A stretch of DNA of 64,000 bases, taken from the NCBI GenBank assembly GCA_963920765.1, contig OY987245.1:18616727-18680726 (forward strand), in the 5' to 3' direction. The translations under genes were made by a program, and so were the position numbers. Positions 2,092 through 37,604 of this stretch are shown here, in pieces. The DNA is from Ulota crispa. Lineage: Eukaryota; Streptophyta; Bryopsida; Orthotrichales; Orthotrichaceae. Under the pieces are notes generated by a model, which did not search any database, was not told where the DNA came from, and worked only from the letters and a program-made list of their open reading frames with translations. How positions within the stretch are numbered: position 1 is the first letter of the stretch; every line of letters starts with the position of its first letter.

Positions 2092-2095
2092 TTAA

Positions 2096-3020
2096 CCCCT
2101 AAAGGACCATTGTCCCTACGCGGACAAATGGGATTTCGGGCATGTACCTATGGCTAAACTACTCTGCGTGATTTTTTGAAACTCTTATTGAAAATGGGGA
2201 ATTCAAAAATTTGCGTGGGCATCTAATTTTTCCTTCATTCTGACAATTATTGAAGAAGTTATGTATGAATTTCTGAAAACATGCAAGATTGGGCAACCAA
2301 AAACTTTTTAAATTTTTTTTTTTCAAAATAAAAATCTAAAATTGGTTCTTTAGATTTATAAATATGTGGGGAGCTTTGAATCATTCAAATTGGATTTATG
2401 AGTGAAAAGTTTTTGTTTGCGGGCAGGTACGGGACTCCTATAATTCCTTTCTTTTGCCTTTGGTACTTTACTTTATTGTGCTCTTTGTGAATTTGTTTTT
2501 GATTTCTTTTTTTCCAAGTTTTAGTAGACTAAGATTCCTTGTTTTTCACCATTTGGATCAGCGTTGTTCATGTTTCTCAATCTTATATAAATCCTCCAAT
2601 CTTACCTAGTGTATATGCAAATTTCATGGCCTTACGGCATTGCAAGATTTTACAAAGTATGGTTCACACCTCCAATTCATATGAAAATTCTCCCACACTT
2701 ACTTGACTTGATCTTCTACATGGAAAAAATAAACCTCAACTTTGCGTAGAGCAATTTTTTTGATTTAGGGGCAATCAAAGGCTTTTGAAATTTTTGGGCA
2801 ATAGGGAAAAATACTTTTTTTTTCACTTCAAATGTCAATATCTCACTCCTCTACATCTAAAATGAGCTGCAATTTCTCCCACAAGTACCTCCCATAGTCT
2901 AGGACAAGATCTTACGGTTGGATTTCCAAAAACAATTGTTTTCCTACCTTTCTACTCATTCCCCCAAAAGTGGCAGTTTTTAATAACTTTCACTAAAAAA
3001 AAGGGCTTGGTCCTTTAGGG
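2096..3020 (-). mobile_element. TTAA-family element, copy A
   Basis: About 925 bp. Left end TTAA then CCCCTAAAGGACC; right end GGGCTTGGTCCTTTAGGG, where the flanking TTAA has degenerated to AATAA. Interior shares blocks with the copies at 9935, 11467, 12397 and 15100 (ACTGCCACTTTT, ACTTGTGGGA, GGAGTGAGATATT in reverse). No reading frame. Orientation is defined by the end carrying CCAAGCCC. Confidence 0.8.
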
Positions 3021-3059
3021 AATAAAGACTCTTTGCCCCCAAGTGGACAAAAACGATCA

Positions 3060-3245
3060 GATGGAGGGATGGATGGATGAACATGTAGGGGGATAGAACA
3101 GATGACATGATGGATGGATGGACGGGTGAAGGGATGATTGGACGGACGGGTGAAGGGATGGTTGGACGGACGGGTGAAGGGATGGTTGGAGGAACGTGTG
3201 AAGGGATGGTTGGATGGACGGGTGAAGGATGGTTGGATGGATGAA
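3060..3245 (+). repeat. ~24-bp minisatellite
   Basis: Six to seven imperfect units with the core GGACGGGTGAAGGGATG, G-rich on the plus strand. The His/Pro/Ser-repeat frames through it are artefacts of the repeat. Confidence 0.85.
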
Positions 3246-5460
3246 CGGAAACACTTGTTTGTGATTAGGCAAAATGTGATGAGATGCCTATCATATGGGC
3301 CCAAGGCACCCTCGGAAAGTGGGATACCTGGGCAAGACTCTGCTTCAATTTTGTAGCTCATACTATTGAGGTATGATTAGATTTTTGAACTTTTAATTCA
3401 TTGACCTTTTTAGCATGCATGGAACTTCATTACTAACCCCTATTGGAAGCAACTCAAAGAAATAGCTTGAAAAATGGGTTGTGTTTCCGCATGTTATTGC
3501 TTATGCAAGGACATCATACCTCAATATGTATTTTTTGAAAGCCCTGTTCTTGAGCGGGATTATTTTACAACAATCAAAACTTTGAAGAAAAGAAGAATGC
3601 AAGCATGTTTTCCAAGGCATTTTTTTCTGGCAAAAGAAAGCCAAACTTGCAAAAAACTGACACATGTGGGCCACTCTCAGTTGGTCCCTCCCTTTATTCT
3701 CAAATGGAGCGTTGACAACTATTTTCTGGCAAACAAAAAAAATGCCTTGATTGTTTTCTAGAGATGATTATGAAATCAGCAAATATGACACATTATTGTA
3801 AAAAGTTCACCCGATAGTAAAAAAATTATACATTAGAAGAAGTTAGTTTGCTATGCTATTCTTTTATAAATCAAGGGTATTTGAAAATTTTAAATATATA
3901 AGTACTATGAAACTTACCATACTTTATAGTATACATTGTCTACTTTAGACTTCTTGCTATTCAATTCAAATCTGACTTTAAAGACTCTTCCAATTGCATT
4001 CATCATCACCTCCAAAATTTTCCAAATTATGTGTAGTTTTTAAAACTAATTAGTATGTTTGTTTCTTCTTAGCTTTCATGGATCAATGATTATTACTATG
4101 CAAGAACTCCCGAATCACCTTATTACCACCATTAAACCTCAAAAGTTCCTTGGATTTGAGAATTGGATGTGTCTTTGTTTAACTTGTTTTTTATTTTCAA
4201 ATGTCCTTTATACGTTTGCCATATTTAAATTACACTAAAAAGGGCAAATACCAAAAATTATATTGTTTGAATCCATTTTGTAAATTCTAGAAACAGTACT
4301 TGCGTTGTAGCAATAGCAGGCTTTATGTATTCAAGTTCCAATGATGCAATATTGCATGTTCTTCATCTGTGATTTATTTTTCATAGGTTTTTAAATTCAA
4401 ATTAGTAATCAACTCATTTCAATTAGTGTGAGATCCATTTGGGGGTTTTTTTTTTTGCCTAATCAATATAATACAATGGCATGCCTCTTGCTTTTATTCT
4501 TCAAAGAGTTTCTAACCAGAGCCTTTCACTGCCCCTCAAGTAGCAACTTTGGAGCTAAGCCTCCATATTGCATCATCCTTCATACACTTTCTAATTGAGT
4601 TAGGTGCTTGCAAAATCTCATTGGAATTTGGCCACTTAAATCACACTATTTGAAATAGTATTTAAGTACCGTGCAATATATTAAACAAGCATAATTTATT
4701 GTACACTATTTTGTAAGATTTGCAATTCACTTGTTTCTTGATTTATTGCAAGTTAGCATTATTAGTGTAAAGCACAATAGGTGAAATTATTGATATTATA
4801 CTCATCTCTCCAAATTTGCATTTTTTGGAAATTTTTGGAGTTTATCAATAATACATGATACAAATGATATTTCTTTTTTTATACATTATGCCTTAATAGT
4901 TAGCTGTTTTTGTTTGTGCTCCAAATTTATGAAATCTTGAACATGCACAAGTAGAAATAAGGTCTTGGAGCACCAAGTTACAACATCAAAACTTGGTGCA
5001 CTAAGCCTATTTGGGCACCAAAACTAGTGCCCATGTGGACATGAGGCACCAAGTTTTGACACTATGGCTTGGTGCCCCAAAATCCTTTTGGTAATACTGA
5101 TGTTAAAATGCAAACACCTAATCTCATATTAAGACCAAATTTTAGTATGATGGTATATTTTTGAGTTCAAATTGAAATAAAATGTATTTAGGATACGAAA
5201 ACTAAAAGTATCCCTAGATAATTTTCAATAGTAGTCTTCATTGCTACATGTTCCTTGCACTTTGAACAAAAGTTTTAATGCAAAAACATTTTATTTGTAT
5301 TGTTTAACAAGAATTATGTAATTTTAAACTAAAATTATAAAAATTACATTACTACCCCCACAAACCCTTGAACTTTATTGCATATGTTGGCAATGCATAG
5401 TCCTCTGCATTAAAAATACAAAGCCGGAATTTGAGTAGAGTTCAAAATGCCAAATTGAAC
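3246..5460. other. AT-rich, no recognisable gene
   Basis: A 95-codon frame at 3474-3761 has no recognisable family. At 4966-5096 a 130-bp cluster of short hairpins repeats GCACCAAGTTTTG and its complement three times. Otherwise nothing supportable. Confidence 0.5.
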
Positions 5461-5466
5461 TTCTCC

Positions 5467-6110
5467 TAAATGCCCAAGGCACCATATTATGGTCTTGACA
5501 ATATTTTGAACTTCTATAAAACCTATCTAAATTACTTTTTTTAGTAATGTTTTTAAAAACTATTCCCTCATGAAGTCTAGTTTAGTATCAAAACCCCGAT
5601 TTTGTAAATGATTGACTATGATTTTTCTATCCAAGGTTTTGAGCAAGGTTGTCCATTGCTATCTTGATTTTTCACTACAAGAAATTGTGTCCTAATTGAC
5701 ATGTCCAAATTGACTAAATATGTCCAAAATGACCCAAAAAAATGTCAAATTGGATAATTTTTGTAGATTTAACCATGTTAATTTGGACATATTTTTGTCA
5801 TTTTGGACACTTTCCCTTGTAGTATTTTTAGTGTTAAGAGCTCTTGGAAATGAGCCATAAATATAGTAGACCTTGGAGAAAAATTTACACTAAAAATTCA
5901 TTTAAAAAAATTGTAAAGGAGATCTTGAAAAGCTGCAAATTGATTGGAATATGTCCTTTAACCCTATATTTGTCATGTGACCATTTTTTAAGATTTTACA
6001 TGTAAAAAGAAGATCGAAATGTGAATCTTTTATCCAGAATTTTCCGAAAACTACTAGAATTTTGTTGTGATGTTGTAAATCTGAATTAAAGATGGCATTA
6101 CATAAAAGCA
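5467..6110 (+). mobile_element. Diverged relative of the 7369-8000 element
   Basis: Starts CTCCTAAATGCCCAAGG. Blocks such as GAGCTCTTGGAAATGAGCC and CTTGGAGAAAA match the 7369-8000 element along most of its length. The right end has decayed and no TTAA is seen. It is interrupted by a 152-bp CACTA-type miniature element at 5673-5824, absent from the relative at the matching place. Confidence 0.6.
5673..5824 (+). mobile_element. CACTA-type MITE with GTCCAAA-rich arms
   Basis: Begins CACTACAAGAAATTG and ends CCCTTGTAGTA, with TTT on both sides as a 3-bp target duplication. The 152 bp fold into a hairpin of repeated ATGTCCAAATTGAC-like motifs. CACTACAAGAAA is the usual plant CACTA (En/Spm) terminus. 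A second copy lies near 23839-23968. Confidence 0.85.
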
Positions 6111-6455: not shown

Positions 6456-7213
6456 CCCCTAAAGGATCAAAGAGCCCAATATGGTCACAGGAGGTGCTTG
6501 GATGTGTGAAAGTATACAAAAGAGGTATTTTTAGCTCAAATTTTGGTCTGTCACTCAAGTCCAAATGGAGTTGCTAGTTCAATAAAAAAAATTGATTGAA
6601 TTGTTGTACCTTGATGCGCCTCCTTTGCTCTAGGTTCTCCATGGAATATGGAAAATATTCTATTTTTTCAACAATTAGGAGAAGAATGTCTTTGGGGAGC
6701 AACTTAAAGAGCAAATGGAATGGGTGCTCTCATGTCTCATATTGTATAAAGGAGAAGTTTGGTGATGTCACTTTTTTTTTTTTTTCATTTGGATAAGGTT
6801 TTCATAACTCTAAAGTAAGGAGCTAGTGAAATCTAGCTACTTTGAGTGACCATATCTTTTGGGGTTTTTGTCCGTTTGTGGAGTTTTTTTTTCCATCAAG
6901 TACAGCAAGACACAATCTCATGGGATCAACCATTAGGTAAATCTTTTCATAGAGAAAATATTACAGGAAAGTCCAAAATCTATATTTTGAACTATTGCCC
7001 AAATTGGAAAACATGAGATTCTCAACGGTGGGGATTTTGCAGATTTACTTGGATTTGAAATCAAATTGGTTTGAAACATTTGATTTATAGTTGGGTATAG
7101 AATGACCGGTTTGGATTATGTGATTACTTGTTCAACTTTTCAAAAACTAGGGGAATATGTTGAAGGTTTCATGTTGAAGTTATGCTGAATTTTCTTAGCA
7201 AGACGCTTAGGGG
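6456..7213 (+). mobile_element. TTAA-flanked element, short variant (758 bp)
   Basis: TTAA on both sides (6452-6455 and 7214-7217), ends CCCCTAAAGGATC and CTTAGGGG. The interior differs from the ~0.95-kb main copies; the short frames at 6326-6796 are not convincing genes. Confidence 0.6.
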
Positions 7214-7368
7214 TTAAAATGGCATAGGGCTCTAAAACCATCCACTTCCTCAAATGTACACTACTTATACATTATTGAAGATTATGAAAAAAAACATGTA
7301 CAAGTGAAGTACATTTAAGAAGGTGAACGGTTTGACAGCCTAAGTGCTTTTAGAACCTCCTATCTTAA

Positions 7369-8000
7369 CCCCTAAATGCATGCAACACCAAATTTTGGTG
7401 TCGACAATACTTTGAAGTCCAATAAACCTAACTAAGTTGCAATTTTTAATAGTTTATATTTTAAAATATTCTTTTTGAAGTCTAGCTTTAGCATCAAAAA
7501 GCTGATTTTGAAAAGGACTGATTATAAATTTTCTATTCAAGATTTTATGCAAAGGTCTTGACTTTGTGTAGTGTTGAGAGCTCTTGGGAATGAGCCTCAA
7601 ATACACTAGATCTTGGAGAAAATTCTACACTAGAAATTCATTTTTAAAAATTGTATAAGAGCTTTTGGAAAGCCATAAAGTGATTTGAGTTAATTATGTT
7701 ATGCACTTTAACCTCATGTTTTTTTGGTGACCAAACTTTTAGATTCAACGTGTCAAAAGAGGATTGAACGACTTTAATTGTTTTTGCAGTTTAAAACCCT
7801 CATGATCAAACAATATAATCTTTCAATCCATAAGTGATATTGTTGTGTATTCTTTTCCTGTTTGCTCTATGACATATCTAGTTTGAATTTGTACGGTTAC
7901 AATCTTGAAAATTTTGATACAACCTATTAAAATGTTGGATTTTTTTTTAAACTTAGAAAAAATTCCTAGGAGCTCAAAATAGACCTCATGCATTTAGGGG
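7369..8000 (+). mobile_element. TTAA-flanked element with 14-bp perfect ends (632 bp)
   Basis: Flanked by TTAA at 7365-7368 and 8001-8004. Ends are CCCCTAAATGCATG and its exact complement. No reading frame. Related over most of its length to 5467-6110. Confidence 0.8.
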
Positions 8001-8032
8001 TTAAAAGTAGCAAAATTTTCATCGGGAAATAA

Positions 8033-8685
8033 GGGAATTGATATGTGTACCACACCCTTTGAGCTGTTGTACCACACCCTTTGAGCTGTTGTACCACACC
8101 CTTTGAGCTGTTGTACCACACCCTTTGAGCTGTTGTACCACACCCTTTGAGCTGTTGTACCACACCCTTTGAGCTGTTGTACCACACCCTTTGAGCTGTT
8201 GTACCACACCCTTTGAGCTGTTGTACCACACCCTTTGAGCTGTTGTACCACACCCTTTGAGCTGTTGTACCACACCCTTTGAGCTGTTGTACCACACCCT
8301 TTGAGCTATTGTACCACACCCCCGGGGTAAACATTCGATTTCTACCATCAAAAAGCTGAATTTGAGAAATTGGAATTCAGATTTGGACTCGGAGACCATG
8401 TTTTAGTCTAGAATCATACAAAAAGTTGTAATTCAACAACACCCAATGAAAAAGTTTAACTAAGGCAAAAAGTGTTACTTTTATTTTTGTTTGTTAAAAA
8501 AGATAAACTTTTTCATTCGGTGTTGTTGATTTGCAACTTTTTGAATGGTTCTAGACTAAATCATGGTCTCTAATTCCAAATCTGAATTCCAAATTCTCAA
8601 ATTTGCTTTTTGATGGTAGAAATCTAAAGTTTACCCCGGGGTGTGATACACTAGTTCAAAAGGTGTGGTACACATATCAATTCCC
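8033..8685 (+). mobile_element. MULE-type foldback element, copy 1, with expanded left arm
   Basis: Arms begin GGGAATTGATATGTGTACC and end with the complement; both arms then carry CCCCGGGGTAAAC-like and ATTTCTACCATCAAAAAGC-like sequence running to a centre near 8495. Flanks GGGAAATAA (8024-8032) and GGGAATTAA (8686-8694) are a 9-bp duplication with one mismatch, the length typical of Mutator-like elements. The left arm holds a 12-unit tandem array missing from the right arm. Non-coding. Confidence 0.9.
8047..8321 (+). repeat. 22-bp tandem array, 12.5 units
   Basis: Twelve full 22-bp units containing CCACACCCTTTGAGCTGTT, virtually identical, plus a partial one; only the last full unit differs (GCTATT). 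All three frames stay open because 22 bp cycles through frames without a stop, giving false proteins of the WYNSSKGVVQQLKG type. Confidence 0.97.
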
Positions 8686-9011
8686 GGGAATTAAATATTG
8701 CTACAAGACTGGTAAAAGGCCCGGTGTTAAGTTCAAACTTTTAGCACATTTATCTATGTTCTTGGCAATTTGAGCAATCTGTGAAAATCCCATTTATTGG
8801 GACTACCGGTTAGCTTCAAAAAGGTACCGGTAAGTTAGCTGGAGATTACTTCCGGTACAAACCCAGAATTGACCGCGGCACGGTCTTTGAGGCATGGTTT
8901 TCCACAAACCAGACAAAATTCAGTTACCATTTAATACCAAACCAGCCGTTTTATTTTTTCCTGTTTTCTTTATTCGTTTTTAGCTCGGGGTGGCTCCAAG
9001 ATAATGGTTAA

Positions 9012-9863: not shown

Positions 9864-9864
9864 G

Positions 9865-11462
9865 TACCCCCTAAAGGACTTGATCCATTTTGAAATGGTC
9901 AAAATTCATGCCTAAGCTCAATTTTGTCTTTTAACCCCTAAAGGACCAAGCCCTTTCTTCTTCAAAAATCATTGAAAACTGCCACTTTTGGAGGATGAGT
10001 AGAAAGGTAGGAAGAAAAGTTTCTTTTGGAAATTCAACCGTATGATCTTGCCCTCGACTATGGGAGGTACTTGTGGGAAAAATTTCAGCTCATTCTAGAA
10101 GTAGAGGAGTGATATATTCACATTTGAAGTGGAGAAAAAAGATTTTTTCCCTCTTGCCCAAAAATTTCAAAAGCCTTTGACCACTCCTATATCAAAAAAA
10201 TTGCTCTATGCAAAAGTTGAGGTTTATTTTTTCCATGTAGAAGACCAAGTTAGGTAAATGTGGGAGAATTTTCATATGAATTGGAGGTGTGAATCATACT
10301 TTGTAAAATCTTGCAATGCCATACGGCCATGAAATTTGCATATACACTAGGCAAGATTGGAGGATTTATATAAAATTGAAAAACATGACTTAATTTGATC
10401 CAAACAGTGAAAACCAAGGAATCTTAGTCTACTACAACTTGGAAAAAGAAAGTAAAAAAAAAAGACACAAAGAGCTCATAAAGGGAAAGGAATAAATTTT
10501 ACAAGAGGCAAAAAGAATGCAGGTGTGGGAGTCCTATACCTACTTGCAAGCTAAAACTTCTCATAACTTTCATCTCATTAATCAAAACTGAATGATTTAA
10601 AGATTCCCACTTTGTATAAATCTAAAGAACCAATTTCTGATTATTATTATTTTTAAATGCAAATTTGATTTTTTTTGGGTTGCCCGCCCTCACCGTTTTT
10701 CAGAAATTCATGCATAAGTTCTTCAAAAAATGTCAAAACGAAAAAAAAAGAAAAGATGAGTACACAAATTTTTGAATTCCCCATCTTCCATAAAAGTTTC
10801 AAAAAATCACACAAAGTAGTTTAGCCATAGGTACTTGCCCAAAATCCCATTTGTCCCCCGAATGGACAGTCAGTCCTTTAGGGGTATGAAAAAATTTCAA
10901 TTGGTTATTTATTTTTTATACCCAAAACATCCACAACAAAGAATTTCAAGTCAAATTTGACTATCAAACCAAATTTATCCTTATAATTAATTAATTTATA
11001 AGATTTTGATATTTTTTGCTAAAAAACACATCCATTTTCTATTTACATTTATTTTTTTGATAAATTTGATGAAAGTTTTGAATTACATAATTTTTGAAAG
11101 CTAAACGTGGAAATAAAATAATAGCAATTAGAGTATATTTTTAAAAAGTCTATAATTTCTATCATAAATGAATGGTAGAATGAGAAACATAGTTTTGTAG
11201 TTTAAGCTTAAAATGCATTTAAAGAGTAGAAAATACAAATGAAAAACACACCATGTTGTGCTTTTTGGATTCTAACTTGTGGAGCTTTCAATGGAAATAA
11301 TTCTTTCAAATTTTGACATTTTTCAAAAAAATTAAACGGAATACACACAGAAAACTTGTCAAGCTTCATTTTATTAGTTTGAATCATGTACCAAAAATCA
11401 ATAATTCAAAAGTCACAATTAGGGTTGACCAAGGTGCATCCAAAAAGTGGATGCATAGACCT
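9865..11462 (+). mobile_element. Second copy of element X, split by nested copy B
   Basis: Begins CCCCCTAAAGGACTTGATCC, matches X for about 70 bp, is interrupted by copy B (9935-10884), then resumes at about 10888 and matches X to its end, TGCATAGACCTTT. About 200 bp present in X are missing at the right side of the insertion. Confidence 0.7.
9935..10884 (+). mobile_element. TTAA-family element, copy B
   Basis: 950 bp, preceded by TTAA at 9931-9934; ends CCCCTAAAGGACCAAGCCC and CAGTCCTTTAGGGG. The right flank is TATG rather than TTAA, consistent with a deletion next to the element. It carries the conserved subterminal sequence GGTACTTGCCCAAAATCCC. Non-coding. Confidence 0.85.
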
Positions 11463-11466
11463 TTAA

Positions 11467-12392
11467 CCCCTAAAGGAATGAGCCTTTTCTTCAAGTTAAA
11501 GTCACTGATAACTGCCACTTCTACAAGAATGAGTAGAAAAGTAAGAAAATTTGTTTAAAAAAAAAATCCAACCGTAGGATCTTGCTCTAGATTGCTAGAG
11601 GAACTTGTAGGAAAAAATAAAGTCAAATTAGATGGAGAGGAGTGAGATATTTACATTTAAAGTGCAATTTTTTTTCTTGCTGCCTAGAAATTTTAGAAGT
11701 CTTTGACCACTCTTATATCAAAATAATTACGCTACTCAAAGTTGAGGTTTATTTTTCCCATGTAGGAGATCAAGTTGGTTATATGTGGGAGAAATTTCAA
11801 ATCAATTGGAACTACACAAAACATGGGAAAAAAATAGTAAGTAAAAAGAAGTAGAGAATGAGTCAAAACACTAAATTGTTAAGAATTTAATTATTGAAAT
11901 GAAAAATACAAATCTCGATGGTTGTAATGTTACAATAAACAATTGACTTCTTTTGGTTTTATTTTTTTTCCAAAATAATGAAAATTGAGTAAAATAAAGG
12001 ACTTCAAAGTTTATTTTTGAGTAGAGAATCCCTAACTACCCGCAAACAAAAAACTCCTCATAACTTTCCTCTCATTGATTGAAATTGAATGATTCAAAGC
12101 TACTCATGTATAAAAAAATCTAAAGAACCAATTTCAAAAAATAAAATTCAAAAAGTGTGATTTTAAAGAAAATTTTTGGGTTGCCCGGATGGGCAATCCT
12201 CTTCAAATTTTCATAAAATCAAGCATAAGTTCTTTGTCAAATGTTGAAATGAAGAAAAATTTAGATGCCTACATAGGTCTTTGAACTCTCCTGCTACAAT
12301 AAAAGTTTCAAAAAATTGCACAAAATAGTTTAACCATAGGTACATGCCCAAAATCTGTTTGTCCCTCAAACAGACAAACAATCTTTTAGGGG
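11467..12392 (+). mobile_element. TTAA-family element, copy C
   Basis: 926 bp between TTAA at 11463-11466 and 12393-12396. Ends CCCCTAAAGGAATGAGCC and CTTTTAGGGG. The right TTAA is shared with copy D. Non-coding; the frames at 11313-11854 run across element edges. Confidence 0.85.
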
Positions 12393-12396
12393 TTAA

Positions 12397-13402
12397 TCCC
12401 TAAAGGACCAAGCCCATTTTTCTGTGAAAATCATTGAAAATTGCCACTTTTGGGAGAATAAGCACAAAAGTAGGAAAAAAAGTTTTTTGAAAATTATCTG
12501 AAGGATCTTGCCCTAGACTATGGGAGGTACTTGTGGGAAAAAAATGAGCTCATTCTAGAAGTAGAGGAGTGAGATTGACATCCAAAGTACAAAAAAAAGA
12601 CTTTTTCCTTGCTGCCCAAAAATTTCAGGAGCCTTTGATTGCTCCAATATCAAAAAGGTTGCTCTACACAAAGTTGGGGTTTATTTTTTCCATGTTGAAG
12701 ATCAAATTAGTTATGTGTGGGAGAATTTTCAAATGAATTGGAGGTGTGGATCATACTTTGTAAAATATTGCAATGCCGTAAGGCCATGAAATTTGCATAT
12801 ACACTAGGCAAGATTGGAGGATTAATGTAAAATTGAGAAATATGAGTTACTTTGATTCAAATGGTGAAAACCAAGGAATCTTAATCTACTACAACGTGGA
12901 AAAAAAAAATAAATAAAAAATTAAAGCACCAAGTTTAACAAGAGGAAAAAGGAATGGAGGTTTGGAAGTTTCATTGAAACAACTGCACTGTAAGAGCTTT
13001 GTGTCACATACGCCTTATTACATGTTTTCTTTCAATTATTGTAATACCTGCCTCCAAACTAAAACTTCTCTCTCATCAATCATAATTGAATGATTCAAAG
13101 CGTTCCACATATATAAAAATTCAAAGAATCAATCTCATATTCATATATATATATATATATATTAAAGCAATTTTTAAAGAATTTTTTTGGGCTGCCCAGA
13201 TTGCCTGCCCTCCCCGATTTTCAGAAATTCATGCATAACTTCTTCAATAATTGTTGGAATGAAATAAAAATTAAATGTGCATGTACATCTTTGAATTCTC
13301 CACCAACCTCAAAAGTTCCAAAAATTTATAAAAATTAGTTTAGTCATAGGTACATGCCCAAGGTCCATTTGTCCCTCAAGGGGACAGTTGGTCCTTTAGG
13401 GG
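12397..13402 (+). mobile_element. TTAA-family element, copy D
   Basis: About 1006 bp, starting TCCCTAAAGGACCAAGCCC immediately after copy C's TTAA and ending GGTCCTTTAGGGG before TTAA at 13403-13406. Contains a short (TA)n tract near 13143-13162. Non-coding. Confidence 0.85.
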
Positions 13403-15099: not shown

Positions 15100-16044
15100 C
15101 CCCTAAAGGCCCAAATGTTCCCTTGGGGACAAATGGATTTTGGGCATGTACTTACAGCTAAACAAGTTTGTGTGATTTTTTAAAATTTTTATTGAAGGTG
15201 GGGAGTTCCAAAAACTACGCAGATATCCTTTTTTCTTCTTCATTCTAACATTTGACAAAGAAGTTATGCAAGAATTTCTGCAACTCAAGGGAGGGAGGGC
15301 AATCTAGGTAGCCTGAAAGCTTCTTTAAAAATTGTATTTTTTTTAAATAAAAATCTGAAATTAGTTCCTTAGATTTTTTTTATACGTGGGAAGCTTTTAA
15401 TCATTCAATTTCAATCAATGAGATGAAAATTATGAGATGTTTTAGTTTGTGGGTAGTTACAAATCCTCTACTCTAAAATAAACTTTGAAGTCTTTTATTT
15501 TCCACAATTTTCTATGCTTTGGAAAAAAAACTAAACCAAAAGAAGTAGATTGTTTATTGCAACATTACAACAATTGAGATTTGTATTTTTCATTTTAATA
15601 ATTAAATTCTTAACAATTTAGTATTTTGACTCATTCTCTGCTTCTTTTTACTTACTATTTTTTTCCCATGTGTTGTGTAGTTCCAATTGATTTGAAAATT
15701 CTCCCACATATAACCAACTTGATCTCCTACATGGGAAAAATAAACCTCAACTTTGTGTAGAGCAATTTTTTTGATGTAAGAGTGGTCAAAGGCTTCTAAA
15801 TTTTTTGGGCAACACGGTTTTTTATTTTTTTATTTTTTTATTTCTTTTGCTTCAAATGTAAATATCTCACTCCTCCCCATCTAGAATGAGCTGATTTTTT
15901 CTCACAAGTACTTGTTCTAGTCTAAAGCAAGATCTTATGGTTGGATTTGCAAAAAAAACTTTATTTCCTACTTCTCTACTCATTCTCCCTCAAAGTGGCA
16001 GTTTTCAGTGACTTTCACAGAAAAAGGGCTTGGGCCTTTAGGAG
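15100..16044 (-). mobile_element. TTAA-family element, copy E
   Basis: 945 bp between TTAA at 15096-15099 and 16045-16048. Ends CCCCTAAAGGCCC and GGGCCTTTAGGAG. Contains the conserved CCCTTGGGGACAAATGG palindrome at its left and the ACTCATTCTCCCTCAAAGTG block at its right. Non-coding. Confidence 0.85.
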
Positions 16045-17440: not shown

Positions 17441-18348
17441 CCCCTAAACGATCAAGCAATGTTTTCACCAAAAAACTCTTCAAAATTGGTATTTTTAGAG
17501 CATCAACCAAATTTGAAAATAAAAACATTTTTGTTCATGTGTAGTTGTAGGATCTTGTACTAGGATAATTTTAAAAGATTTGGAAAAATTCAGAAATTTT
17601 CCATTGCGTGGATTGGAAGATACAACAATTTGAATATGCAAATACATCGTGTGAAAAATTAGACATCTACCCTTTAGAAGGTGAAATTCCTAAGGGAAAA
17701 ATGCCGTTTGGGTGGTGTTTCTCTAAATTCCTTATTCCATTTAAGTAAAGTACATGTCAAAAAAGTTTCAAATCATTTGGAGCTGTATAACATATGGAAA
17801 AAAATAGTGAGTAAAAAGAAGCAAAGAACAATTTAAAACACTACATTGTTGAGAATTTAATTATGGAAATGAAAAATGCCAATCCCAATGGTTGTAATGT
17901 TGCAATTAACAATCTACATCCTTTACTCTTGTTTTTTTTCCAAAATGTTGAAATTTGAGTAAAATAAAGGACTTCAAAGTTTATTTTAGAATAGAGAATC
18001 CGTAATTGCTTGCAAACAAAAACTCCTCATAACTTTCATTTCATTGATAAAAACAGAATGATTAAAAGCATTACACATTCACATAAATCTCCTTAACCAA
18101 TTTCAAAATTTTGTTCTTGAAAAAAGCATTTTTTTAAAATCTGCCTAGGCCGCCGAGTGAAATAAAAAAACATATTGGGCCATATCTTATTACTCATATT
18201 TTCAAATGTCATGAAATTTAGTGCATATGAAAGATAAACCTTGTTCCCACATTCAACTAAAATTTCAACCTAAAATATGAAGATCTTCAATCACGTGTAC
18301 CTGCCCAAATTTGCTATGTTGCTAAAAAAGGGTTTGGTCCTTTAGGGG
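17441..18348 (+). mobile_element. TTAA-family element, copy F (second subfamily)
   Basis: 908 bp between TTAA at 17437-17440 and 18349-18352. Ends CCCCTAAACGATCAAGC and TTTGGTCCTTTAGGGG. Interior blocks (GTAGGATCTTGTACTAG, GCTATGTTGC) are closest to copies G, I and J. Non-coding. Confidence 0.85.
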
Positions 18349-18459
18349 TTAAAATGAAGTCAAATGGTAAACGAATTCTCCATAATGATAGTTTTTTGTC
18401 CTAGGAATCCACACCTATCAAATTGTTTTTTAAATTCTTAAACTTAATTCAAAACAATA

Positions 18460-19377
18460 TGTGCTAAAGCCCTGGGGCCTTTATTTTGTTAAAAGACACT
18501 CAAAATTGCACATTCTATTGCAAAGAGTAAAAAAGTTTGAAAATTGGTCTTTTTGCATATATAACCATAGGGTCTTGTACTAGACTAGTATAAGAATGTG
18601 GATGAAAAAATTTCGAAAACTTTGATTGCATAGATTGCAAGATATTTGCTTTTAAAGTGTAAAAAACAAACTTTTTTGCACCTTGCATGATTAGATTATT
18701 TGACTTTGAATTTTTTTAACTTAAAACTTTTGCACCACAAAGTTCAAAGTTTTATGTTTTTACAGTGGAAAATTGAGTTGAAAATCTTTAGAAAAAAACC
18801 AAAACAAAAAATACTTAATTTTCATTCTTAAAAAAACATCAGGTAGAAGAAGGTCTCAGATTGAACAAAAACTTAGATTGTTAATAACCCTACAATGGAA
18901 ATGAAATGCAATAATTCCAATGGTGAGATTGTTCTAGAAAGCAAACTTCACTAGTTTCAACAATTTGTTTAGAAAAAATGTTATACTTGCATTCAAAATG
19001 AAGTTTATAAGTTTTTTTTTAAGAAGATGCTTAAATTGCTCAAAAAACAAGATTGTCCATAACTTTCTCATAACTAGTCCAAATGGAATGAATCAAAGCC
19101 CCAAATGTAAACAAATATTTAATCTATGAGAGAAAAAAAAAAAAAAAACAAATTCAAGTTTCTGTAAAAAAATTTGCTACCCCACCTCCCCATATTTGTG
19201 CTTATGTAGGCATAACTTTGCTCCTGAACATAAATTGAAATAAAAGTTATGTTTCACAAAAACTAATATGCTTACCTATTTTTGAAAAATGTTTCAAAAA
19301 ATCTGAACAAAAATTGAGGCCGTAGGTACCTGCCCAAATTCCCATTTGTCCCAAAGGGAATAACAGGACTTTAGGGG
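18460..19377 (+). mobile_element. TTAA-family element, copy G
   Basis: Right end ACTTTAGGGG followed by TTAA at 19378-19381; left end is decayed (CTAAAGCCCTGGGGCC). Interior block ATAGGGTCTTGTACTAG matches copy F. Left boundary approximate. Confidence 0.7.
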
Positions 19378-20359: not shown

Positions 20360-20650
20360 TATATACTAGTTTACTCACCCATTGTACCTACGGGTTGATC
20401 ATTGTGCCTCCTATTCCCGTGCCCCCTATCCCCGTGCCCCTATCTCCATGCCCCTTAAATTTACTTTATTTCATTTGTAACATTCGTTCACTAGTAGAAT
20501 ACTACGTTAAATCAACATAAACTACATGATGTTACTTTGTTCCTAAAGCAAACTTTTGCATTAGGAACAATGAAACATCATGTAGTTTATGTTGACTTTT
20601 ACGCAATTTTCTACTAGTGGTTAAACGTGTATTCTACTCTATTTTAAAGT
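20360..20650 (+). repeat. Short relative of the 21560-22060 minisatellite unit
   Basis: Has only about four C-rich units (TATCCCCGTGCCCC, 20398-20459), then AATTTACTTTATTTCATTTG and later GTATTCTACTC, the same flanking order as 21985-22045. It is split by a CACTA-type MITE at 20489-20619. Confidence 0.7.
20489..20619 (+). mobile_element. CACTAGTAGAAA MITE, copy 1
   Basis: 131-bp hairpin, ends CACTAGTAGAA and TTTTCTACTAGTG, with a perfect 3-bp duplication GTT (20486-20488 and 20620-20622). The related locus near 22020 has a single GTT and no element. Arms contain ACTACATGATGTT. CACTA superfamily, non-autonomous. Confidence 0.9.
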
Positions 20651-25914: not shown

Positions 25915-26548
25915 CGGAAACTATCAAAAATATGCATGACAATTAAAGTTTACCAAAAATAGGTTTGACAATTAAAAATTTCCAAAAATAGGCCTCATCA
26001 TATATCAAAAGTAGGCCTAGTAACCATGGTGACCAAAATTTTGTGCATGTTTATTTATAGGGTTTGATATATGCACATTGGGGGGGTAAATTTTAGATGT
26101 TTATCATCAAAAATCTAAATTTGAAAATTTTGAATTTAGACTTAGATTTAGAGACCTTGGTTTTATCAAGAACCACAATGGAGGTTACAATTGCACAATG
26201 CCCAATGGAAAAACTTAGCTAGGGGGCAAATGATTACTTTTACCTTTGTTTGTCAAAAGAACTAAACTTTTCCATTGGGCATTGTTCAATTGTAACCTCC
26301 ATTGTGGTTCTAGAAAAAACCAAGGTCTCTAAATCTAAGTCTAAATTCAAAATTTTCAAATTTAGGTTTTTGATGATAAACATCTAAAATTTACCCCCCC
26401 CCCCCAATGTGCATATATCAAACCCTACAAATAAGCATGCACAAAATTTTGATCACCATGGTTGCAAGGCCTACTTTTGGAATTTTTTAATTGTCAAACC
26501 TATTTTTGAAATATGGCCAATTGTCAAATTTATTTTCTATAATTTTCC
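25915..26548 (+). mobile_element. MULE-type foldback element, copy 2
   Basis: 634 bp with perfect 9-bp duplication TTTATGTAA (25906-25914 and 26549-26557). Arms run from GGAAACTAT-like ends through AAATTTTGTGCATGTTTAT, a homopolymer G/C tract and AAATTTACCCCCC to a centre near 26245. Core arms match copies 1, 3 and 4. Confidence 0.92.
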
Positions 26549-26557: not shown

Positions 26558-26673
26558 AACACCATATTCATTAAATTGAAAATTTTGTAACATTTTAAGT
26601 TTTGACTACCTTAAACCAAGCATTAGGATACAAATTGTGAATCTGGTTTTCCCAATTTAATGAATATGGCGTT
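26558..26673 (+). mobile_element. AACACC-ended MITE, copy 1 (4-bp TSD)
   Basis: 116 bp with inverted ends AACACCATATTCATTAAATTG and complement (one mismatch, GGCGTT). Flanked by GTAA on both sides. The left GTAA is also the end of the foldback's target duplication, so the foldback inserted exactly at this element's edge. Confidence 0.75.
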
Positions 26674-28188: not shown

Positions 28189-29112
28189 CCCCTAAAGGAC
28201 AAAGGGAAATTTCAAGAAACATTGAAAAACTGCATTTTTTTGGTATGTTGATAAAAACACAAACCAAAATGTTTTTGGAATCTTTGACGGTACAAAAATA
28301 TAGTAAAATGTTTCTCCAATGTGTGATAAGAATCTCAGCTCATTTGATCTTGTAGATTGTAAGATTATAATGTTTGAAGTGAGAAAAACATCTTTTTTTC
28401 ATTCTTGCAAAACAAGGTCAACAAAATTTAAGCCTTTTTATAGTTAATTTTTTGCTCTACTCAAAAATGAGGTTTTTGACAATTTATATGTATATGATGT
28501 TAGGTTCACTCATGAAAAGGTCCAAAAGCAAATATAGAATTTAGCTTATTCTAAATCACCTTGTAATGTAAGGAGGTTAAGTAAATTGGCCATACAATAG
28601 TCATTTTTTCATGATTTTTTGTGCAATGAAGAAGTCTTTTATTTGAAATATGAATGATGAAAAGTTAGAGGCAAACATCCAAAATATGTTAAAAAAGTTT
28701 CAAGAACTTTGAATTTATGAGTTGCAAGATAATAGGCCATGAAGTTAGAAGATTTTTTTTCTCTTGAAACCACCCAGATATAGTTAATAAAGTTTGACTC
28801 CTCTTAGACTATGATTTGTGAGCTCATTTTTTTCATAACAATTGTATATCATATTTTATTAGTTACATACATGCCAAGTTTCAGAAGTTGATGAGAGTTT
28901 AACATAAGATTCTCAAAAATACCCAAACCGTCCAATGTGCCCAAATTTTTTTGGAAAACAATTTTTTTTACTCCAACATCTAATCAAAAGTCTTTTTTTT
29001 TCACACAAAGAAGTTCAATGTGTGCACCTTTCAGAAACATCTACCAAGAATCGACTTCATAGGAACCTCAAACTTTCAACTGGCTGTTGAACATACAATT
29101 ATGGTTTAGGGG
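28189..29112 (+). mobile_element. TTAA-family element, copy H
   Basis: 924 bp preceded by TTAA (28185-28188). Left end CCCCTAAAGGACAAAGG; right end GGTTTAGGGG, decayed, with CTGA flank. Interior CTCATTTGATCTTGTAGATTG shows it is a diverged member. Non-coding. Confidence 0.7.
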
Positions 29113-29461
29113 CTGAGTCTATTTTACTATTGATGATTCAGAATAAAGTTAAACAAAAATGAAGCAATTTTTATTCATTTTTTCCTTGATTCAATGTTTG
29201 GCGTACTACATGTTAAAGTCCATGCAAATTTGGGGTTTTTCTCCAACATGGTGCATCAATTGATTAGTTTGAGCTGCAAAAGAGTCAACTGTCAAACTTC
29301 AGTGACAATAACTTTTTGAAATAAAGTCCACAAGAATTGACCTTTGCAATGGGACTTCATAGTTGTTATAAAATAAAAATGACAAAACAATCTCATGGTC
29401 ATTGAAGTGAGGTCACTTAGACCCGCGATATCTTGAACATTAATAAGCTAAGTAAGATAAA

Positions 29462-30705
29462 GGGAAAATATCGGAAATGACCCTGACAATTGGCTATATA
29501 TTGAAAGTAACCATGAGAATTCAAAAAAATAGAAAATAGGCCTCAGCCATAAAATTTCTGTTTTTTCCCTGGTCGCACGACATGCACCCAACAATGTCAA
29601 GAGGCAAGGCAAAATTGGATGAAAATGGGTAGAATCAACAAAAAGCACACATTCATCCATATAATGTACTAATATTTGTGTCTTTCATTCATATTTTGGC
29701 AAATCTATTGCATGTTTAGGCAGGCACTTGGCAAATTCATCCAATTTCTCACCCAAAATTTCTAGTGTTATGGTTGCCAAGCACAAACTCAAGTAAGATT
29801 TTGGCAAAAATTTGCCAAGAATTTAAATGCTACTCATCATATATCATAAGGAGGCCTTGCAACTAAGGTGACCAAAATTTTGTGCATGTTTATTTATGGG
29901 AATTAATATATGCACACAAGGAGGGGGGGTAAATTTTAGATATAAACCATCAAAAAGCTGAATTTGAAAAATGTGAATTCAAATTTGGATTTAGAGATCT
30001 AGATTTAGCCTAGAACCGCAAAGGAGATTACAATTGAACAATGCCAAATGGAAAAGCTTAGCTAGGGGACAAATTATTACTTTTACCCTTGTTTGTAAGA
30101 AAAAGCCAAGCATTTTCATTTGGCATTGTTCAATTGTAATCTCCTTTGCGGTTCTAGGCTAAATCTAGATCTCTAAATCCAAATTTGAATTCACATTTTT
30201 CAAATTCAGCTTTTTGATGGTTTATATCTAAAATTTACCCCCCCTCCTTGTGTGCATATATTAATTCCCATAAATAAACATGCACAAAATTTTGGTCACC
30301 TTAGTTGCAAGGCCTCCTTATGATATATGATGAGTAGCATTTAAATTCTTGGCAAATTTTTGCCAAAATCTTACTTGAGTTTGTGCTTGGCAGCCATAAC
30401 ACTAGAAATTTTGGGTGAGAAATTGGATGAATTTGCCAAGTGCCTGCCTAAACATGCAATAGATTTGCCAAAATATGAATGAAAGACACAAATATTAGTA
30501 CATTATATGGATGAATGTGTGCTTTTTGTTGATTCTACCCATTTTCATCCAATTTTGCCTTGCCTCTTGACATTGTTGGGTGCATGTCGTGCGACCAGGG
30601 AAAAAACAGAAATTTTATGGCTGAGGCCTATTTTCTATTTTTTTGAATTCTCAGGGTTATTTTCAATATATAGCCAATTGTCAGGATCATTTCCGATATT
30701 TTCCC
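29462..30705 (+). mobile_element. MULE-type foldback element, copy 3 (1244 bp)
   Basis: Flanked by the perfect 9-bp duplication TAAGATAAA (29453-29461 and 30706-30714). Ends GGGAAAATATCGGAAATGA and complement. Arms of about 610 bp are almost identical. The outer ~400 bp, absent from the other copies, hold a mirrored 68-70-codon frame (MDECVLFVDSTHF) in both arms; inner parts match copies 1, 2 and 4. Centre near 30083. Confidence 0.95.
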
Positions 30706-31293
30706 TAAGATAAATGAGACAATATCCATAAAGTGTTATGACAAATACATGTAATAATTAGAAGATAAGCTATCCATGCCTCAAATAGAGTATCTTGTTA
30801 TCTATAACACTATTCCTTAATATTTAATAACAAATAGAAATTAGACGATCAAATCATTTTATGTTTTTCTTTTCATAAGTCTTGTTTAGTGTATATCCAT
30901 TTTAGCACATGTGAACACTTTTTCTTGTGAGTTAAAATAAATAAATAAATAAATAAAAGGTTTTGCACGACATGTGTTTTTTGTAAAATACGTTTTTTGT
31001 AATTTGCCTTTTTGTAACTCATGTTAAATTTCAAAATTAAAATTATATAAGATTTAACAAATAAATAAAAAATCTTTAAAATTAAACCTTGAACCTTGCA
31101 TGCAAACAGCAAACACCTAAAACATTTGACCTAAATAATATTGCTCAAGTCAAAGTTAAGCCTAGATACTCTAAGTTTTGGCATGTAAAGCTTGTAACTA
31201 CAAAGATGTGGTTGAATAATTTGTTGAATTTAGTATATAAAATAAAATTAAATGAAATTGACAAGATTTATTACAAATTTTGAATCAACATGT

Positions 31294-32512: not shown

Positions 32513-32516
32513 TTAA

Positions 32517-33433
32517 CCCCTAAAGGCTCAGACATCGTTTTTTGGCAACACATCAATTTTGGGCAGCTCACTACAAATGGAATATTTGTTATTTAAAAAA
32601 AAAAAAAATTAGACACGATGTGCCCAAGGAGTAGTTTTAAGGCCCAACAACTTTCATGATAGCTTTTGACTACTTGCTTCAAAAGTTATTGCATGATATG
32701 TAGTTTTCTTTGTTCACTGGGCTACCCAAGCATATCAAAAAACTTTAAAAATTTGTATATTTATGAAAAAAAATTGGGATTGGTTCTTTAGATCTCTATA
32801 TATGTGGGATGCTTTAAATCTTCCATTTTAGTCAATGAGATGAAAAATATAAGGAGGTTTTGATTGCAGACAATTATGGGTTCTCTACTAAAAAATAATC
32901 TTTGAAGTCCTTTATTTGACTCAATATTTTGGAAACAAAATAAAGCCAAAGAATGTGAATCTTTAATTGCAACATTACAACTATTGGGATTGAAAATTTT
33001 CATTTTAATAATTAAGTTCTTAACAATTTAGTGTTTTGAATCATTCCCTACTTCTTTTTACTTATTATTTTTTTCCCCATGCATTGTACATTTCCAAATG
33101 ATTTGGAAATTTTCAAGTGTGTACCCAACTTGTGTTGAAGAATGAATCCAAAGAATTACAACCATTTTGGAAATTCATACAAATATGACCTTGTGAAGTG
33201 CAGCTACCCAGGTTTTTGCATGAACAAAAATTGGCTTTTTGTCAATTCAAACTCAAATATCTAACAATATAGAAATTTCTGAATTTTTTTCCATGTCTTT
33301 CAATACTAGTGTAGTACAAAATCTTATGGTTACATGTGTCCAAAAATGACTCTTGTCTAAAATTTGGTACTTGTATTAGAAACGGCAATTTTGGAACAGT
33401 TTTGGTGAAAACTTAATCAAAAGCCTTTAGGGG
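32517..33433 (-). mobile_element. TTAA-family element, copy I
   Basis: 917 bp between TTAA at 32513-32516 and 33434-33437. Ends CCCCTAAAGGCTCAGAC and AAAGCCTTTAGGGG. Closest to copy J in reverse (GTTTTTTGGCAACA, TGGGCAGCTCACTAC). Non-coding. Confidence 0.88.
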
Positions 33434-33667
33434 TTAAGCACTTCAAAAACATCTTAATATGAAAACAATGAACGTCTTTTACACGCATGTATTTATACAT
33501 GTATGTGCAAAAATGTGAACAACTTGCTAACAATTAGACGTTCTAGCTTGAGATTTACAATGGAAAATAATATATAGAATGTGTGCTCAAGGTGCTTAGA
33601 AATAAACCTATGCCAACAATGCTTTTATACCAAGTGAACTTGTCTACATATCTTTAAGTTTAGTAAA

Positions 33668-34104
33668 AGGAGAAATTAAAAAAGGGGCATGCAAACGTAA
33701 AATATTGTAGATAGGGGCGCAGTTTCAAAATAATTACAAATAGGGGCACAACTTCAAAAAAAGTTGTAAATATTTGTAATTTTTTTGGTTTGGATACTGG
33801 TTGATTTAAACACATTGCATTAAATGTTAGCTAATTTCTAAAAAACTTAAAGGTCTCTCCCAATCAAGCTTGAGTAAAGAAATTTTAGTAAAGGGATGAC
33901 TATTTTTGGAAACTTTCCATTTTTTAAAAAGTTAGCTAACATTTAATGTGATGTGCCTAACTCAATCAATGTCCAAACCAAAAAAAATCTACAAAAAATT
34001 ACATTTTTTTGGAAATCATGCTGTATTTGTAATTATTTTGAAACTGCGCCCATATTTGAATATTTAATATTTAATGTTTTCAAGCCCCTATTTGTAATTT
34101 CCCC
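33668..34104 (+). mobile_element. 437-bp inverted-repeat element with 9-bp duplication
   Basis: Perfect TTTAGTAAA on both sides (33659-33667 and 34105-34113). Ends AGGAGAAATTA and AATTTCCCC, inner arms share TAGGGGC, CAAACC and AACATTTAATG motifs. The 9-bp target points to a Mutator-like mover, but the sequence is unrelated to the four foldbacks. The frame at 33953-34153 is not a gene. Confidence 0.85.
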
Positions 34105-34469
34105 TTTAGTAAATCTTAGAGATTCCCAAATGAACATGTTAATTGTTTTTTGAAGATGTTAGCTCAAAGAGTTTATATGACTCAGTTCATTATATAAGTC
34201 ATTGCATCTAATTATTTAGTCATACAATGATACAACGTCATTGTTTAATGTTATGAAAATAATATGACCTATTATGTTGAGGAATACCAACTTCAAAGTA
34301 CCCTCTAGTTCCAATTGCACCCACCTATGGTGGTCACTTCTTGCTCACCTCAAGATAGATCACAGTAAGTTGAAATTGTCTTTAAAAAAAGTGGTGAATG
34401 TGATCCATTATTGATGAATTTAAAAAATCGTAGAAGAAGTTTTGGTGAAGAAGAGTGATTGTTTCCTAA

Positions 34470-35377
34470 CCCTTCAGAGACCACCAAACCATATTTTGGT
34501 TTGGGAGAGTAGTTTTTGGCCTATACAATAAAATCGCTTAACAATTTGGAAATTGATCTTGAAGAACGCTTGTTATCACAAGAATTTTGCATCCAACCTA
34601 AGAAACAACAATGGAATCAGATATGTGAGTTGATAAACAATGGTGTTTATACATCATGGCCTCAAACTACATATCCATATTTAGTCAAAAATGGGTCAAA
34701 GTAACAACATAATACATCAAACATCCAAGAAAAATGCCACATTTCAATTGTGCAATCTTAAAAAAAATTTAAATTGATTAAGGAATACGCTTGTATTGTT
34801 TCTCTATATGGTAGTAGTACAATTGTAGTATTTGAGAATGCATTGAAATGATACTATCATTTTATTTAAAAAAAAATTCATCCTTCATTTAAGGTCAATT
34901 CTTGATTGCTTTCACCAATTGGATTTTCCATAACAATTATCACATTTCTTGTAGAATTGTTTTAGGATAGCAAAGAAAGTGGGATTTTTGACCCTTTTTG
35001 TCCGCTTAGCTACACCTTGTGATTGTTATTTTTGTCTATGTTGTGTGAAACTAGTCTTATTGGAAAGGTGGGAAACCTTGCTTTCTAGAAATGTAAGGCT
35101 CTTCTCAACCAAAACTTGCATGAAGCGTTAACATTCAAAGCCACACAAGCATGAAAAACTAAAGATTTTCCATATACGGCTCACTTAATCATTGTAATAT
35201 TTCACCTCCAACAGTAGATCAAGTTGAAATTTTGATATGTTACAACACACAAGACATCCTTCACATTTGTATGGTTGAATTATTCAAATTGGGTCCATAT
35301 TTGATTCAAATGCACATCTAATTTTATTGCCCCAATTTCCCGTAGATTTTGGGAAAATGTGTGTGATCTTTAAAGGG
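34470..35377. mobile_element. Possible decayed TTAA-type element
   Basis: Left CTAA then CCCTTCAGAGACC, right GATCTTTAAAGGG then TTAA. Size fits the family, but interior blocks of the other copies are not evident. Weak call. Confidence 0.25.
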
Positions 35378-35859
35378 TTAAAGTTGAAACTTTTGCTAGA
35401 GATGGAATAACCAAGATTTCAAAAGTAGGTTTGCAATTTACAATAACTCAACTACGTCTTTGACTAGTCTATCTTGTGGGCTGTTTGAGTAACCAAGGGG
35501 AGGGATAAGATTTTGAGAATGTTTTCTGGTTTTTGGAATCATTCTTGTTGAGCTTTTCCCCTTGTCACGAAACTATAACACACTTGTATGTAACTAAAGG
35601 GGTGTCAAAAACTATTTTCTAGGTTTCTTTATAGATGTGCAAGTGTATCACCCAAGTGTTCTATCCCTGTGCAGAAGTTTCCAATTCTAACGTCCATTGT
35701 TACTAGCTTGCAATGTTGGTTACCATTGGTTTTTCTGATAATAGTATTGATGCATAGTGTTAGTGTTATTTTATTTGTTGGTATACTTCTCCCTGAGATT
35801 TTAGGAAGCCAAACCACTTGCTTCCCAAAGAACATTTAACGTGGGGAATGAATATAAAA

Positions 35860-36180
35860 TCTGCTCCAAAATGGGAAATGGTGATACGGTGTGGAGTTGG
35901 GATGTTGCCAAGGGGAAGGTCATTGGGCCGCACTACACTAGTGTTATACCATATTGATGTAAGCGGCGATACCAGTGGCTGGCGGCAGCACTATGCAGGC
36001 ATCCACATCGACACATGTCCTCTAAGCTCTAGGCCTCCATTACTTCCACTTACCAAACGGTCAAAGTGGTAAGCGAGGGCCATCCACAAGGGCCTTGCGG
36101 AACTAGACTGGAGCGGTAGAGTGGAGCTCGGAGGAATGCACTAATGAAGTGGAGGCCGCGCAATCCCTAATTACTTGAGG
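35860..36180 (+). other. GC-rich patch with decayed frame
   Basis: Distinctly GC-rich against AT-rich flanks. One frame reads protein-like segments (VWSWDVAKGKVIGPHYTSVI, QWLAAALCRHPHRHMSSKL, VVSEGHPQGPCGTRLER, ARRNALMKWRPRNP) separated by several stops. No family recognised; possibly a fragment of a mobile element or host gene. Confidence 0.3.
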
Positions 36181-36363
36181 AATTAAGGTAGCAGCACCCA
36201 TGCTCACAAGGGTCCCCATGAGCGTTACCTACTCCTGTGTCAAATTGTCAAGGAATGACAAATATAACAAAACTAGTTATGGGTGACTAGCATGACAATT
36301 TTGAGTGCCCCATCTCATTATTTAAGCACTCGAGTTAGTATTATGAGCTTATGAGCGCACTAA

Positions 36364-37422
36364 CCTCTAAAGCACTAAGCTCAAAATTTCATCAAAATTG
36401 CTCCAAAATTGCCATTTCTAGTACAAGTACCAAATTTTTGAAAAAAACATTTTTTGACAAATATAGTCGTAAGATCTTGTATTACACTAGTATCAAAAGA
36501 TGCGGAAAAAACTTCAGGAGTTTTCACCATGTAGATTGTAAGATATTTGAGTTTGAATTGACAAAAAGCTATTTTTTGTCCCTGCAGAAATCCGGGTAGC
36601 TGCACTTCACAAGGTCATATTTGTATGATTTTTTTTTTGAAAATGATTGTACTTTTTTGGATGTGTTCTTCAAAGCAAGTTGGGTACACACTTGAAAAAA
36701 TTCAAATCATTTGGAATTGTACAACACATGGAAGACAAATAGTAAGTAAAAAGAAGTAGAGAATGCACTAGTAGAAAACTGTGTTGAAGTCAACATTGAC
36801 TACATGATGTTTTCATGCTCCTAACACAAATTTTTGCGTTAGGAGCATGAAAACAGCATGTAGTCAATGTTGACTTCAACATAGTTTTCTACTAGTGATG
36901 AGTCAAACCACTAAATTGTTAAGAACTTAAATATGGAAATGAAAAACTCCAATTTCAATGGTTGTAATGTTGTAATAAACAATCTACATCAGTTGGTTTT
37001 GTTTTTTTCTACAATACTGAAAATTGAGTAAATTAATGGACTTCAAAGTTTATTTTAGAGTAGAGGACCAATAACTACCCGCAAACAAAAGCTCCTCATA
37101 ACTTTCACCTCATTGATAAGAATTAAATGATTCAAAGCTTTCCATGTACATATAAATCTAAAGAACCAATTTCAAAAAACAAAATTCAAAAAATGTAATT
37201 TTTAAAGAAGTTTTTTGGCTGCTTGATGAGCAAAGAAAACTACATATCATGCAATTACTTTTGAACCATGTAGTCAAAAACTATGAAAATTGTTGGGCCT
37301 TAAAGCTACTCTTTGGACACATCATGTGTGAAAATTCCAAAGAAAAAAAATGAAAACTCCATTGGTAGTGAGCTGCCCAAAATTGCTATGTTGCCAAAAA
37401 TGGGTGTTGAGGGCTTTAGGGG
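36364..37422 (+). mobile_element. TTAA-family element, copy J, with nested MITE
   Basis: Left end CCTCTAAAGCACTAAGC after CTAA (decayed TTAA); right end GGGCTTTAGGGG before TTAA at 37423-37426. Without the nested 132-bp MITE and its 3-bp duplication it is about 924 bp, the family norm. Non-coding. Confidence 0.85.
36766..36897 (+). mobile_element. CACTAGTAGAAA MITE, copy 2
   Basis: 132-bp almost perfect palindrome, ends CACTAGTAGAAAACT and complement, perfect 3-bp duplication ATG (36763-36765 and 36898-36900). Inserted in copy J. Confidence 0.93.
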
Positions 37423-37604
37423 TTAAAATTATCTCCTACACACAACTTCACATTTTCAATGATTTTGGACTTTGAAAAATATTTGTGAACAAATGCTTGC
37501 GATTAGAACTTTGAAATTAATGTCAAGATTTGTGATTTCCTCTTGCTAGCTTGACAATTTTTTTCTCAAAGTTTATCATGATTTCCCTACTCCAAAATCC
37601 TTAA

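Follow-up and report, generated by a model that had tools for sequence, protein, structure and literature searches.

Miniature piggyBac-like transposons flanked by TTAA, and longer transposase-bearing elements with the same ends, in the genome of Ulota crispa

Tourist and Stowaway, the miniature inverted-repeat transposable elements (MITEs) of plants, are short and abundant DNA transposons that have inverted ends and do not move autonomously. The piggyBac element of T. ni (6x67) and piggyBat (9c0f) are characterized by a DDE_Tnp_1_7 domain with aligned aspartates, a TTAA duplication and C-rich inverted ends. Here we describe a repeat family from a stretch of 64,000 nucleotides of Ulota crispa (assembly GCA_963920765.1, contig OY987245.1, positions 18,616,727 to 18,680,726), in the following called the window, which lies on a contig of 25.7 Mb in an assembly of 274.8 Mb. 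Judged from the sequence, its blocks of about 0.93 kb can with high confidence be regarded as non-autonomous, MITE-like members of the piggyBac group that would have been cut down from longer elements of the same genome. They resemble Tourist and Stowaway in abundance, shortness and inverted ends, but those elements have TTA or TA duplications and depend on Harbinger or mariner transposases. With the two known piggyBac systems, the longer elements described here share the domain with its aspartates, the duplication and the C-rich ends, whereas they differ in having a plant host and a length of about 5-9 kb, nested repeats included; intact piggyBac elements of beetles measure 2074-3465 bp in the available passages of PMC12732532. 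The coral CMITEs, as far as the excerpted text of PMC2872659 goes, are likewise non-autonomous, duplicate TTAA and are tied to piggyBac-like elements present alongside them in the genome. However, they are about 100 bp long, whereas the miniatures of Ulota measure about 930 bp, of which about 750 bp are recognisable from the ends of a long element, and, unlike the CMITEs, are represented by many thousands of ends.

All ten copies listed in a preliminary description of the window were recovered by end scans and BLAST as genuine and related, being 908-1059 bp long and lying in both orientations (Table 1). The statement that most of them have TTAA on both sides was generous, since this was directly observed for five of the ten (11467, 12397, 15100, 17441, 32517), whereas the other five have it on one side and show ATAA, TATG, CTAA, CTGA or a decayed end at the opposite flank. 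The outermost ~13 bp (CCCCTAAAGGACC) are common to both ends, and the next stretch is either of a "left" type, TTTTGGGCATGTACC, or of a "right" type, AAGCCCTTTTT, so that the inverted ends are short and the subterminal parts asymmetric. In line with this, the subterminal motif that had been described as shared, GGTACATGCCCAAAATCC, does occur seven times in the window (up to two mismatches), but is confined to one end type, which shows that the two ends differ beyond these ~13 bp. The family comprises several subfamilies, with best full-length matches of 69% to 92% in a sample of 19 copies, for four of which no partner aligns across 80% of the length. Copy 11467-12392 appears to be a mosaic whose outer thirds resemble 9935-10884 and whose middle resembles 17441/32517, which suggests that recombination or template switching between subfamilies may have taken place; this copy and 12397-13402 have one TTAA (12393-12396) in common. 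No open reading frame of at least 150 amino acids lies inside any copy of the window. With a length of 0.9-1.06 kb, no coding capacity, a high copy number and the same ends as the transposase-bearing elements on contigs C5 and C9 described below, the copies have the features of MITEs. To call the family the main builder of the first 37 kb was overstated, as it accounts for 9822 bp of 37,426 (26%; E <= 1e-5, library of 19 copies), and to the right of position 37,426 the window contains no family match at this threshold.

Genome-wide, the 13-mer end occurs 9597 times in exact form, compared with three occurrences of the reversed pattern as a control, and the 13-mer together with TTAA (TTAACCCCTAAAGGACC) occurs 8154 times, compared with none; TTAA precedes 85% of the exact 13-mer ends. 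If up to two mismatches are allowed, TTAA plus 13-mer is found 38,725 times and the reversed pattern 40 times. As the end counts far exceed these controls, the abundance is far above chance. The density of family ends is 0.14 per kb, and a rough estimate, which presumes paired ends and a mean length of 0.93 kb, would be about 19,000 copies, 18 Mb or 6-7% of the genome.

The proposal that TTAA is the target duplication is supported by paralogous empty sites containing one tetramer. When the flanks of copy 15100-16044 were joined by one TTAA and the genome was searched, 41 matches were obtained, of which 40 span the junction with 85-90% identity (40 of 2103 candidates scored). All six spanning sites that were read are ungapped and have a single tetramer, TTAA in five cases and TTAG in one, and three further spanning paralogous sites (L053, L041, L058) have TAAA, TCAA and TTGA at this position. 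TTAA is thus present twice in filled and once in empty sites, and nothing else is duplicated; another duplication outside of TTAA, which would have spoken against the proposal, was not seen in the empty sites examined. A second search with the flanks of 17441-18348 matched these two flanks themselves and no paralogous site.

The domain PF13843 (DDE_Tnp_1_7) has at least 120 matches in the genome (best E 1.3e-73) and none in 14 control genomes; 10 of the 120 matches are stop-free, two of them resembling intron-split genes (C1:1180709-1181995 and C8:19570986-19572215). A DDE_Tnp_1_7 gene flanked by the ends of the window family, as expected for the partner that had been suspected elsewhere in the genome, is present at three loci on contigs C5, C9 and C7, each time interrupted by stops. 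At these loci the right end of the family type was seen with wider flanks, and the left end was then found in three out of three. Nested repeats, such as a miniature in C7 (2617-3542 of the stitched sequence), are counted in the lengths of these partner elements. The left end of the C5 element, CCCCTAAAGGACCATTG...GGATTTTGGGCATGTA, contains the exact 13-mer and the subterminal motif of the window family.

The relationship goes beyond the ends. Positions 1-174 of copy 2096-3021 match positions 1-175 of the C5 element at 87%, and positions 377-925 match its positions 8273-8820 at 76% (554 aligned columns); in the C9 element, positions 1-183 are matched by positions 1-183 at 80% and positions 407-842 by positions 8009-8438 at 74%. 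Since BLAST output at loose E-values was mostly noise, only matches repeated at strict E-values were used. Adjoining each end of C5 and C9 there is the corresponding half of the miniature only, which shows that these are not nested miniatures. In view of the two-half match to C5, the most fitting interpretation is that the miniatures derive from a piggyBac element by internal deletion. Long piggyBac elements of about 8-9 kb would lose their interior, so that the miniatures retain some 0.2 kb from the left end and some 0.55 kb from the right. Acting in trans, a piggyBac transposase would cut the miniatures at CCCC...GGGG, and these would insert into TTAA, thereby duplicating it. The broken partners on C5, C9 and C7 presumably are, or were, active in trans; miniatures would then have been moved by a transposase of this type via cut-and-paste, and repeated rounds may have made the subfamilies.

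The protein of the partners agrees with this assignment. In a read-through translation with X at the stops, the C7 domain matches PF13843 with an E-value of 3.5e-71 and the T. ni piggyBac 6x67 with 2e-21, and the aspartates of the motifs IDE, LDN and GVD..DQ are aligned. The catalytic aspartates of piggyBac are those numbered 268, 346, 447 and 450. The same aspartate motifs are present in C5 and C9, with part of the IDE stretch of C9 differing downstream. The stop-free copy L020 matches piggyBat 9c0f (E 1.2e-21). Behind the domain, a pattern C-x2-C ... C-x2-C ... C-x4-CF can be recognised by eye in L020 and L013 and more weakly in L012. Members of the piggyBac superfamily have a cysteine-rich zinc domain at the C-terminus, but a Pfam zinc-ribbon match was obtained for none of three pieces.

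Several observations weigh against reading the miniatures as derivatives of piggyBac elements. In the C7 element, similarity to the miniatures is limited to the outermost ~48-54 bp at either end and to one 66 bp stretch, and the two-half test gave no match there; moreover, C5 yielded no counterpart of the miniature's central ~200 bp. The transposase genes of C7, C5 and C9 have two, three and two stops in the domain, respectively, and no intact element with the ends of the window family was seen among the 23 transposase loci (20 and three more) whose flanks were read. A first check of the 20 loci (1.5 kb flanks, 17 bases, up to four mismatches) gave no family end, and a scan of the same loci for paired inverted ends flanked by TTAA was equally empty, in both cases because the elements exceed the stretches examined. 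The empty-site evidence comes from one insertion (15100-16044), and, as TTAA is palindromic, such sites taken by themselves would also fit a TA duplication within a TTAA preference. Finally, the three loci were picked because their right end matched, and with family ends this dense about 6% of transposases would have a correctly oriented pair around them by chance. The last point would favour mere convergence at the ends, with three transposase genes lying between unrelated, independently inserted miniature fragments, and so would the similarity of C7 at the outermost ~50 bp only. With a chance pairing of ~6%, the half-by-half match at C5 and C9 is the main argument against such a coincidence: the two transposases are 65% identical, yet both elements follow the same plan, each end being accompanied by its own half of the miniature alone. 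Furthermore, blocks between the ends are also common to C5 and C9 (76% for an upstream block), the left end was recovered wherever the right one matched, and at two loci a transposase lies between the same two ends with the same spacing. We therefore consider this coincidence very improbable.

We regard it as extremely improbable that the miniatures are a family of the PIF/Harbinger type, with a TTA/TAA duplication and a target that happens to extend to TTAA. TWA duplications are a known pattern in plants, the Harbinger domain PF13359 is abundant too (at least 150 genome matches), and at one of the inspected Harbinger loci (L040) a family end with two mismatches lies near the edge. However, TTAA flanks the elements symmetrically on both sides and empty sites have one tetramer only, and PF13359 lay between paired family ends in none of the 12 loci inspected (of at least 150 matches; 1.5 kb flanks); the idea had already been weakened by the piggyBac elements carrying family ends. 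A partner of another superfamily, the outcome that would have contradicted the preliminary description, was not seen in this search, which covered Harbinger only. A Tc1/mariner-like family with a TA duplication, ends ACCCC...GGGGT and a TTAA preference fits the empty sites equally well, TTAA being a palindrome, but has next to no probability, since elements with family ends encode PF13843 (Tc1/mariner transposases were not searched for).

Besides the family of the window, the genome contains piggyBac elements with other ends (Table 1). The two elements of ~5.0 kb on C3 and C10 are 90% identical. Since the end pairs differ, the genome harbours several types of ends that combine CCC with TTAA. 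The terminal motif of piggyBac is given as CC[C/T]T in the available passages of PMC2872659, whereas the window family starts with CCCCT and other elements start with CCCCTCAT and CCCTTCAT. Two candidates were rejected: an L046 end beside the C8 transposase belongs to a nested miniature (85% to L004) and not to a partner, and a pair of ends 3.4 kb apart on C1 (L042) consists of a miniature and a separate solitary end, without a transposase. At L046 (1647-1650) a miniature abuts the probable right end of a C8 piggyBac element at TTAA (or TCAA).

Table 1. Coordinates of family members in the window and of transposase-bearing or candidate piggyBac elements in the genome.
Feature	Location	Strand	Length	Remarks
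Non-autonomous piggyBac copy	2096..3021	+		flanks TTAA / ATAA; same subfamily as 9935 and 12397
Unpaired family end preceded by TTAA	6456..6468	+		1 mismatch; end scan
Non-autonomous copy	9935..10884	-		flanks TTAA / TATG; 82% identity to 2096-3021, opposite orientation
Non-autonomous copy, mosaic	11467..12392	-		TTAA both sides
Non-autonomous copy	12397..13402	-		TTAA both sides; adjoins TTAA 12393-12396 of 11467-12392
Non-autonomous copy	15100..16044	+		TTAA both sides; copy used in empty-site test
Non-autonomous copy, another subfamily	17441..18348			TTAA both sides; 69% to L001, 70% to 32517
Non-autonomous copy	18458..19377			left end decayed, right flank TTAA; 82% to L008 and L042
Family fragment	20488..20619			BLAST with 19-copy library
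Family fragment	26558..26673			BLAST with 19-copy library
Non-autonomous copy, L002/L004/L046 type	28189..29113			flanks TTAA / CTGA
Non-autonomous copy	32517..33433			TTAA both sides; related to 17441 and 36364
Non-autonomous copy	36364..37422			flanks CTAA / TTAA
Partner element	C5:24506226-24515054		8821 bp between TTAAs	family ends and PF13843
Partner element	C9:12449389-12440860		8522 bp	family ends and PF13843
Partner element	C7:11814404-11822436		8025 bp	family ends and PF13843
Transposase-bearing element	C3:13130262-13135288		~5.0 kb	paired ends CCCCTCAT/CCCTTCAT
Transposase-bearing element	C10:11524996-11530021		~5.0 kb	paired ends CCCCTCAT/CCCTTCAT
Transposase-bearing element	C4:14100870-14106325			ends CCCCTAAATGCC
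Transposase-bearing element	C5:10873011-10867266			ends CCCCTAAATGCC
Candidate end pairs, CCCTT-type	C4 near 3.59 Mb; C1 near 1.18 Mb			

Some further features were noted. Downstream of the transposase domain of the C7 element there is an array of a 52-bp unit (7072-7671 of the stitched sequence, C7:11820871-11821470), which in one frame reads as a peptide repeat similar to THIY. In three cases, two PF13843 matches of equal or nearly equal score lie in opposite orientation 14-109 kb apart (C2:36765124/36779670, C7:18203169/18223004, C10:676128/785346); these may be segmental duplications in inverted arrangement or copies of recent origin. The window also contains a large near-perfect hairpin at 29461-30706 with arms of 603 nt that are 99% complementary and spaced by 40 nt; related inverted repeats are located at 8324-8603, 26080-26400 and about 37601-38029, and several transposase loci (L013, L023) have similar sequence nearby. 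On the minus strand, there is an open frame of 303 amino acids (47840-48751) whose C-terminal part matches DUF7869 (PF25273, E 1.3e-9).

The plant host is supported by TTTAGGG arrays near the end of C1 and by LEAFY domains, with six genome matches for PF01698 (best 1.2e-27) and two exons on C4 for PF17538 (best 8.4e-51). The LEAFY motif reads PKMRDYVHCYALHCLD, and the D at that position presumably marks a moss LEAFY. A set of ten contigs of 15.8-41.4 Mb would agree with the karyotype of a moss, and the host is very probably a moss. The TTAA duplication, the three partner loci and these host markers together support the suggestion of a plant piggyBac-like lineage with its partner elsewhere. As to the statement that piggyBac is rare or unreported in most land plants, the literature, in the passages available, treats the group as rare in plants, but plant records exist. 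Plants are named among piggyBac sources in the excerpted text of PMC10813416, and that of PMC10794571 lists PiggyBac among the class II superfamilies of plants; repeat tables give 1230 PiggyBac hits for a fern (PMC6890710) and one for a grass (PMC8319324). In a moss paper (PMC10619864) the word occurs only as "piggybacking", and the accessible portions of openly licensed PubMed Central papers yielded no description of piggyBac elements or miniatures from mosses. The kind of transposon is therefore a known one, and the surprise lies in its host, its copy number and how long the elements are. We lean slightly towards the view that this moss has been colonised by a diverse and previously unremarked piggyBac lineage with elements of 5-9 kb, several end types and about 19,000 miniatures (~6-7% of the genome), some of whose transposases may be intact or may have become host genes.

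piggyBac is a widely used transposon for genome engineering, and the literature, in the passages available, describes mainly animal representatives. A moss in which transposase matches number at least 120 and miniature ends tens of thousands extends the natural hosts to land plants and raises the question of vertical descent versus horizontal transfer. The elements are also a plant-adapted source of transposases and ends. Moreover, plant repeats that are flanked by TTAA should not be assigned by default to the Harbinger or mariner classes.

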